Positions 9,133-19,587 of a stretch of DNA of 64,000 nt are shown here, piece by piece. Source of the stretch: Gemmatimonadaceae bacterium (GTDB lineage Bacteria > Gemmatimonadota > Gemmatimonadetes > Gemmatimonadales > Gemmatimonadaceae); the NCBI GenBank assembly GCA_011525845.1, contig WYBP01000011.1, positions 186,001 through 250,000 of the forward strand, given 5' to 3'. Every line of letters starts with the position of its first letter. The first letter of the stretch is position 1. The notes beneath the pieces are model-generated. The model did no database searches, was not told the origin of the DNA, and saw only the letters and a program-made list of their open reading frames with translations. The translations under genes were made by a program, and so were the position numbers.

Positions 9133-9200
9133 CCGGCGGCGCCGCGCAGGCCGGCGGCGCCGCGCAGGCCGGCGGCGCCGCGCAGGCCGGCGGCGCCGCG
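9133..9200. repeat. 18-bp GC-rich tandem repeat, 3.8 copies
   Basis: The unit CCGGCGGCGCCGCGCAGG is repeated three times without a mismatch, followed by a 14-nt partial copy. Each unit contains GGCGCC, so the array is also full of short inverted repeats and could fold. It fills nearly the whole gap between the M19 stop (9129) and the dioxygenase start. It could act as a terminator-like structure or a slippage-prone minisatellite. Confidence 0.95.
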
Positions 9201-10820: not shown

Positions 10821-12095
10821 TCAGCCCCGCACGACGCTCGACGGCCCGATCTCCGCGATCGACCGCGTCCCAGCGAGCGCCATCGTCGTGCGGAGCTCCG
10901 CCCGAAGGATCTGCAGCACCTTCTCCACCCCCGGCTGCCCGAAGGCACCCAGCCCCCAGAGGTAGGGGCGGCCGATCCCCACCGCGTCCGCGCCGAGCGC
11001 GAGCGCCTTGAAGACGTCCGTGCCGCGCCGGATGCCGCTGTCGAGGATCACCGGCACGCGCCCGCGTACCGCGCGCACCACCTCCGGCAGGCTCTCGATC
11101 GTGCCGCGCCCGCTCTCCTCGGCCCGCCCGCCATGGTTGGAGACGACGATCCCCGACGCGCCATGGTCGATGCAGCGCTGTGCGTCCTCGCCCGTGAGGA
11201 TCCCCTTCACCACCACCTTCATCCGGGTGGCCGCGCGCAGCCGGTCGACGAATGACCAGGTGAGGGCCGGCGTGTTGAAGTCGGCGTCCGCCATCGTGAT
11301 CCCGTCGAACATCGGCTTGCGCGCGAAGGTGGTGTTCCCGCCCCCGTACGCGTCCTTCCCGCCCGCGTGGCACTGGGTGCAGTCGCGGCGGTCGCGCTTG
11401 ATGAAGCGCGTGAGGGAGAGCCGGTTGCTCGAGACTGGGAGGTCCACGGTGAGCACCACCACGGGGCACCCCGCCCCCTCGGCGCGCGCGAGCAGCCGCT
11501 CGGTGATGTCCCAGCGGGAGGTCGGATAGAGCTGGTACCAGATCGGTGCCTCGCGCGCGGCGGCCACGTCCTCCACGGAGGTGGTGGAGACGGTCGAGAG
11601 CATCATCGTGTGCTTCTGCGCCTTGGCCGCGCGCGCCGTCGCGAGCTCGCCGTCCGCGTGGAAGGCACGCTGGCTTCCCGTCGGGGAGATGATGATCGGC
11701 GTCTCCATCTCCACGCCGAGCACGGTGGTGGCGGTGCTGACCTTGTCCACGCCGACGAGGCGGTGGGGTCGGATCTGCCAGCCGTCGAAGGCGGTGCGGT
11801 TCGCGCGCAGCGTCACGTCCCCGTCGACGCCCGTGGCGATGTAGCCGTAGTGCGCCGGCGGCAGCGTGCGCTGCGCGGTGACGCGCATGTCGAACACGTC
11901 GAGCGCCCTGTCGGCGGACTCGATCACTTCGCCGAGCTCCTGGTCGGGCTCGCCATAGGTGCCCATGCGGTCGAGCGCGGCGGCGAGCGACTCGTCCCCG
12001 TCGTCATCCGCACAACCGCTTAGGGCGAGCGGCGCGAGGAGCGGACTCGCCGCCAGGAAGCGGACGAAGGCGCGGCGGTCGGCACGCGAGGTCAT
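10821..12095 (-). CDS. Tat lipoprotein FMN-dependent alpha-hydroxyacid dehydrogenase with CXXCH motif
   Basis: 424 residues. The N-terminus (ADRRAFVRFLAAS...LALSGC) combines a twin-arginine motif with a lipobox, predicting a folded, FMN-loaded protein exported by Tat and lipid-anchored at Cys28. The FMN/lactate-dehydrogenase TIM barrel is complete: WYQLYPTSRW (about 186-195), TVDLPVSSNR, VVKGILT, the catalytic base H321 in SNHGGR, and ILDSGIRRGTD. Unusually, the variable loop after VSSNRLSLTRF contains C239-T-Q-C242-H243, a perfect c-type haem attachment motif placed on the periplasmic side, where haem c is attached. It could therefore be a flavocytochrome oxidising lactate, glycolate or a similar 2-hydroxy acid and passing electrons to envelope cytochromes. 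The haem is inferred from motif and location only. Confidence 0.9.
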   Translation of the reverse strand: MTSRADRRAFVRFLAASPLLAPLALSGCADDDGDESLAAALDRMGTYGEPDQELGEVIESADRALDVFDMRVTAQRTLPPAHYGYIATGVDGDVTLRANRTAFDGWQIRPHRLVGVDKVSTATTVLGVEMETPIIISPTGSQRAFHADGELATARAAKAQKHTMMLSTVSTTSVEDVAAAREAPIWYQLYPTSRWDITERLLARAEGAGCPVVVLTVDLPVSSNRLSLTRFIKRDRRDCTQCHAGGKDAYGGGNTTFARKPMFDGITMADADFNTPALTWSFVDRLRAATRMKVVVKGILTGEDAQRCIDHGASGIVVSNHGGRAEESGRGTIESLPEVVRAVRGRVPVILDSGIRRGTDVFKALALGADAVGIGRPYLWGLGAFGQPGVEKVLQILRAELRTTMALAGTRSIAEIGPSSVVRG

Positions 12096-15934: not shown

Positions 15935-19507
<3,573 letters not shown>

Positions 19508-19587
19508 GATGGGCGCTCGATGGGGCTGGGCTCGCGCCCGCGCTGGGCGGGCGGTGGACACCCGAAGTTACGGCCGGGCTCGCGAGT

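Follow-up and report, generated by a model that had tools for sequence, protein, structure and literature searches.

Flavocytochrome b2, the L-lactate:cytochrome c oxidoreductase of yeast (EC 1.1.2.3, PDB 1FCB), combines an FMN_dh barrel with a non-covalent haem b, which is carried by a separate and mobile N-terminal cytochrome domain of 86 aa (PMC6472588). This haem is ligated by two histidines and lies at an edge distance of 0.53 nm from the FMN (PMC6472588). Transfer of electrons from a flavin to a haem c in the cell envelope is known from flavocytochrome c3 fumarate reductase, flavocytochrome c sulphide dehydrogenase and p-cresol methylhydroxylase, all three of which use FAD and have a separate cytochrome domain or subunit of 74–174 aa; indeed, in the flavocytochromes tabulated in the same source the cytochrome domain or subunit is always a separate one (PMC6472588). 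A minimal haem c site has been described in the magnetochromes of MamP, MamE, MamT and MamX, where a CXXCH motif and a near histidine as sixth ligand are contained in 19–28 residues; the magnetochrome is a repeatable, autonomous mini-domain with its sixth ligand 5–9 residues upstream (PMC3971196). No description of an FMN_dh enzyme with a CXXCH motif was found in the open-licence literature, which is weak evidence of absence.

The window analyzed here is a stretch of 64,000 nucleotides from a Gemmatimonadaceae bacterium. On its minus strand, at positions 10821 to 12095, it encodes a protein of 424 aa, an FMN-dependent 2-hydroxyacid dehydrogenase with a CXXCH motif inside one of its loops. The protein matches the Pfam family FMN_dh (PF01070) with 406 bits (cut-off 24.9, E=1.3e-121, residues 74–421), and no second FMN_dh gene was found in the genome it comes from. 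Its sequence relatives of known structure include lactate oxidase, glycolate oxidase and flavocytochrome b2, and its AlphaFold model superimposes on glycolate oxidase 5zbm with a Z of 45.9 and an rmsd of 1.8 Å over 335 residues, the folds of glycolate oxidase, L-lactate oxidase and mandelate dehydrogenase all reaching Z values of about 44–46. With these three enzymes and with MftD the protein has the active site and the FMN_dh family in common. It scores far under the cut-offs of the NCBIfam models for LldD, L-lactate oxidase and MftD.

The likeness to flavocytochrome b2 consists of the FMN_dh barrel, with 32% identity over 266 aligned columns, of the same catalytic residues and of a putative shared logic in which electrons would pass from FMN to haem and on to cytochrome c. 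In contrast to flavocytochrome b2, however, the window protein has no added domain, and its motif, which is of the haem c kind, is located on one of the barrel loops. A Pfam search of the protein returned matches of the barrel type only (FMN_dh and its kin), with neither a cytochrome b5 domain nor a match to any cytochrome c family; lacking the former, the protein would work in the manner of flavocytochrome b2 without being one.

The original prediction placed the motif CTQCH at residues 239–243 of the FMN enzyme, which could be confirmed from the window sequence: the reverse complement of positions 11367 to 11381, TGCACCCAGTGCCAC, translates to CTQCH. This stretch is the predicted attachment site of a haem c, with His243 as the proximal ligand. 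From the composition of the protein itself only 0.001 occurrences of CXXCH would be expected by chance.

To judge the conservation of the motif, relatives were gathered from 61 related genomes, from bacterial and archaeal genome contigs, from plasmid records and from 395 genomes of the same phylum. In detail, 72 clade members that are less than 90% identical to one another were compared with 26 other FMN_dh proteins. C239, C242 and H243 occur without exception in the 72 clade members, whose identity reaches down to about 43%, and the motif is equally complete at tighter redundancy cut-offs (31/31 at 70% identity and 18/18 at 60% identity). None of the 26 FMN_dh proteins outside the clade has it, and the aligned rows of glycolate oxidase and lactate oxidase, checked residue by residue, likewise lack it, so that the refutation foreseen in the original prediction, a CXXCH lacking conservation among the orthologues, does not occur. 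The two residues between the cysteines occur in 37 variants among the 72 sequences, and since both cysteines and the histidine are fixed while the residues between them are free, the pattern is that of a haem c site. As judged from the sequences, the CXXCH in this enzyme is not a chance occurrence.

In a maximum-likelihood tree all carriers of the motif fall on one side of a single branch with a support of 100/99, although the window gene sits on a long branch and the detail of its placement is unsure. The carriers belong to Gemmatimonadota, Acidobacteriota, Latescibacterota and Pseudomonadota (Gamma-, Beta- and Alphaproteobacteria) and include Polynucleobacter kasalickyi, Polynucleobacter rarus and Methylobacterium bullatum. 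Two sequences from one genome, L044 and L080 (both G194), have the same loop as the window protein; G194 appears to be a Gemmatimonadota genome bin from the taxonomic family of the window, which assigns the window to this phylum. The catalytic residues Y190, D218, K297, H321 and R324 are invariant in all 72 clade members, and the active-site residue Y85 is found in 71 of them and replaced by F in one. From this conservation the enzyme of the CXXCH clade looks functional. Arg225 is the best counterpart of Arg164 in glycolate oxidase; some clade members have Gln or Thr in its place.

Just upstream of the motif lies a D-x-R element (D235-R-R237, positions 11385 to 11393, minus strand), which is nearly invariant in the clade: D235 is present in 96% of the members and in 8% of the outsiders, R237 in 90% and 4%, respectively. 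A divergent subgroup (L091–L098) has lost the D-x-R and retained both the CXXCH and the His82 discussed below. Most sequences of the divergent Gemmatimonadota subgroup L091–L097 also have an extra C-x-x-C-G-x-P between signal and barrel.

The CXXCH motif is located in loop 4 of the barrel, for which the distance from D218 to W280 has a median of 57 residues in the clade as well as outside of it. As this length is ordinary, the motif seems to have arisen inside an existing loop, with no cytochrome domain inserted. A deeper structure model, built from an alignment of 71 rows from which the Methylobacterium protein was left out, reached an overall mean pLDDT of 91.6. In this model the block 230–239 has a value of about 86 and the two blocks spanning 240–259 have values of about 61 and 58, and because of these low values the loop past the motif is not reliably placed in a model that lacks the cofactor.

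For the sixth ligand of the putative haem, alignment columns were screened for His, Met, Lys, Cys or Tyr residues that are invariant in the clade and rare outside. The screen yielded C239, C242 and H243 plus one more residue, His82, whose codon occupies positions 11850 to 11852 on the minus strand and which is present in 72/72 clade members and in 1/26 proteins outside, the single exception being L011, which has this histidine without a CXXCH. Tyr378 is invariant in the clade too, yet it is also found in 31% of the outsiders. His146 was not favoured as sixth ligand, as it is present in 93% of the clade but also in 92% of the proteins outside. The original prediction, which did not name His82, had asked whether a distal Met or His is conserved, and a candidate is thus available in this clade-specific, invariant histidine, which in the model lies on the first helix ahead of the barrel proper (residues 80–88), one turn or three residues before Tyr85. 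His82 is therefore, as far as conservation can tell, most likely the distal haem ligand.

A pairwise alignment with yeast flavocytochrome b2, whose letters and numbering were checked against PDB 1FCB, places Tyr85 opposite Tyr143 and His82 opposite residue 140, and the CXXCH falls on residues 297–301 in the homologous loop. In flavocytochrome b2, Tyr143 is located at the interface between the flavin and haem domains and contacts a haem propionate, and the loop beyond about residue 297 is poorly ordered and lies beside the active site. If this picture holds, the haem of the window protein would sit approximately at the docking place of haem b2. The comparison with magnetochrome shows a different arrangement: instead of a ligand a few residues upstream within one mini-domain, the candidate sixth ligand of the window protein is found 157 residues before the first cysteine, on the first helix of the barrel.

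Haem c is attached to CXXCH on the periplasmic side. The N-terminus of the window protein, MTSRADRRAFVRFLAASPLLAPLALSGCADD, contains a twin arginine followed by a lipobox-like LSGC; the putative twin-arginine signal, RRAFVRFLAASPLL, comprises the first 28 residues (positions 12012 to 12095, minus strand) and ends with this LSGC. All 28 aligned full-length relatives have R7, R8 and S17, and their arginines are followed by a hydrophobic stretch, mostly FLAASPLL. In most of these relatives there are also small-residue sites that would suit signal peptidase I. The claim of a Tat motif plus lipobox thus stands in part only, as the twin-arginine pattern is general among the relatives but the lipobox is restricted to the four closest sequences, i.e. 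the window protein and its three nearest relatives. In addition, the Tat profile is marginal: the NCBIfam Tat model TIGR01409 stays below threshold in several relatives, with a best score of 16.5 bits (cut-off 16.7), and gives no match on the window protein itself. Because the relatives are just under the cut-off and the window protein is unscored, Tat export appears likely but is not proven. A Ser-Pro-Leu that follows the arginines is conserved as well, which is more than is usual for signal peptides.

The own genome of the window gene contains TatC as well as two matches to Cytochrom_C_asm and 15 to Cytochrom_C, so that the machinery for export and maturation as well as plausible acceptors are available. 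Maturation genes do not discriminate, however, because almost all genomes of the phylum (391/395) have cytochrome c maturation. Motif-bearing genomes without a maturation match are G024 and G359, assemblies that are 81–85% complete. The cytochrome c to which bacteria attach haem has been described as secreted and unfolded (PMC8112865), which is hard to reconcile with the Tat export of a folded protein and counts against the combination of the two. On the other hand, a limited CXXCH-containing sequence has been found necessary and sufficient for the bacterial synthase CcsBA in vitro (PMC8112865), and a flexible, exposed loop could therefore serve for the attachment.

Taken together, we consider it probable that the protein is an exported, single-domain flavocytochrome c of the FMN_dh family, containing FMN and one haem c on loop 4 with His82 and His243 as ligands. 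The core of the original idea, a minimal flavocytochrome c, is thus well supported by the CXXCH motif and by His82, but not the generality of the lipobox, and the Tat profile is marginal. In the proposed mechanism, the TIM barrel would bind FMN, and the protein, once folded, would reach the envelope through the twin-arginine system. There, cytochrome c maturation would join one haem c covalently to Cys239 and Cys242 of barrel loop 4. The haem iron would be ligated by His243 on the proximal and, most likely, by His82 on the distal side. A 2-hydroxy acid would then be oxidised at the FMN, and the two electrons would pass singly to the haem beside the mouth of the active site and from there to soluble or membrane cytochromes c. 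Of these elements, the motif with its strict conservation across the clade, its co-occurrence with His82, the intact catalytic residues, the single clade and the Tat and maturation genes of the genome are observed, and Tat export, haem attachment, the ligand pair, the FMN–haem distance, the electron path and the acceptor we infer. We lean, if only slightly, towards the more specific proposal that a bis-histidine haem c bridges the TIM-barrel loop and the first helix in a protein that is exported by Tat in the folded state and afterwards receives its haem on the loop from the cytochrome c maturation machinery.

Among the other explanations the one that survives best, although we regard it as unlikely, is a structural metal site, either of zinc or an iron-sulphur-like Cys2His2 centre, in which C239, C242, H243 and His82 would tie loop 4 to the first helix; there would be no haem, and FMN would hand its electrons directly to oxygen or a different acceptor. 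Two cysteines and two histidines, all of them invariant and able in principle to act as ligands, do appear together, and the protein has no recognisable cytochrome domain. However, it would be unusual for the adjacent Cys and His of C-x-x-C-H to bind one small metal, whereas this motif with freely varying X residues is the standard one for haem c. The twin-arginine start also points to the compartment of haem c attachment, and in the close outgroup L054 the same type of enzyme is paired with a separate multihaem cytochrome.

Slightly less probable still is a haem c that is indeed attached to the CXXCH loop but has a distal ligand other than His82, e.g. Met, water or none. Such a haem may be high-spin, and its role might be that of a sensor, peroxidase-like or structural, with the main exit for electrons lying elsewhere. 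His82 adjoins an active-site residue and could serve substrate binding, a His at this position is also present in the CXXCH-less L011, and Met262 is found in many clade members. However, several members have Asn, Ile or Ala instead of Met262, for which reason this residue was rejected as sixth ligand, while His82 does not vary in the 72 sequences. Exported proteins commonly hold disulphides and C-x-x-C pairs are able to form them, but a C239–C242 disulphide with a stabilising effect on loop 4 in the oxidising envelope, with His243 being incidental, is very improbable, since His243 is conserved as strictly as the two cysteines and is accompanied by His82, and a disulphide needs neither histidine.

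If the reading as a single-domain flavocytochrome c is correct, a flavin dehydrogenase would have gained a haem relay by a few changes only, i.e. two cysteines and two histidines in an existing loop and helix, and fusion to a cytochrome domain would not be needed for such a relay. The protein would then represent a very compact enzyme capable of direct electron transfer, which would be of interest for biosensors of the lactate type. With this protein one could also test if the cytochrome c maturation machinery is able to act on a loop of a Tat substrate that has already folded, and the relatives in Polynucleobacter rarus, P. kasalickyi and Methylobacterium bullatum make such experiments practical.

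Gene neighbourhood was rejected as functional evidence, because synteny is not conserved across the 33 loci compared: beyond closely related species none was found, and cytochrome genes occur as isolated neighbours only. The window gene itself is alone on its strand, flanked by an esterase-like gene and an amidohydrolase gene. In locus L035 the CXXCH-containing FMN_dh gene starts 22 bp after a gene for a fusion of cytochrome c and glucose-sorbosone dehydrogenase (GSDH). The run L035:1702–7200, all on one strand, comprises two genes with D-2-hydroxyacid dehydrogenase domains, the cytochrome c/GSDH fusion and the CXXCH FMN_dh, and possibly represents a cluster for 2-hydroxyacid oxidation. In Methylobacterium bullatum (L060) a gene for a monohaem cytochrome c ends 173 bp upstream of the called FMN_dh reading frame. 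The FMN_dh of L054, a close outgroup, has the same FLAASPL Tat-like signal as the CXXCH group and lacks both the CXXCH and His82; its gene (L054:5499–7185) overlaps by 11 bp with the upstream gene for a protein of 162 aa with five CXXCH motifs, belonging to the cytochrome c7/c3 families. This arrangement looks like a two-protein counterpart of the single-chain CXXCH group. The cytochrome neighbours of L035, L060 and L054 are suggestive, yet as single cases they prove nothing about the window gene.

Elsewhere in the window, a perfect tandem repeat of 18 bp with 3.8 copies of CCGGCGGCGCCGCGCAGG is located at positions 9133 to 9200, between an M19 peptidase gene and a glyoxalase gene. Furthermore, an open reading frame of 1208 aa on the minus strand (positions 15935 to 19561) appears, by eye, to encode a fusion of a beta-propeller with repeats of the Tol/dipeptidyl-peptidase type and an amidohydrolase.
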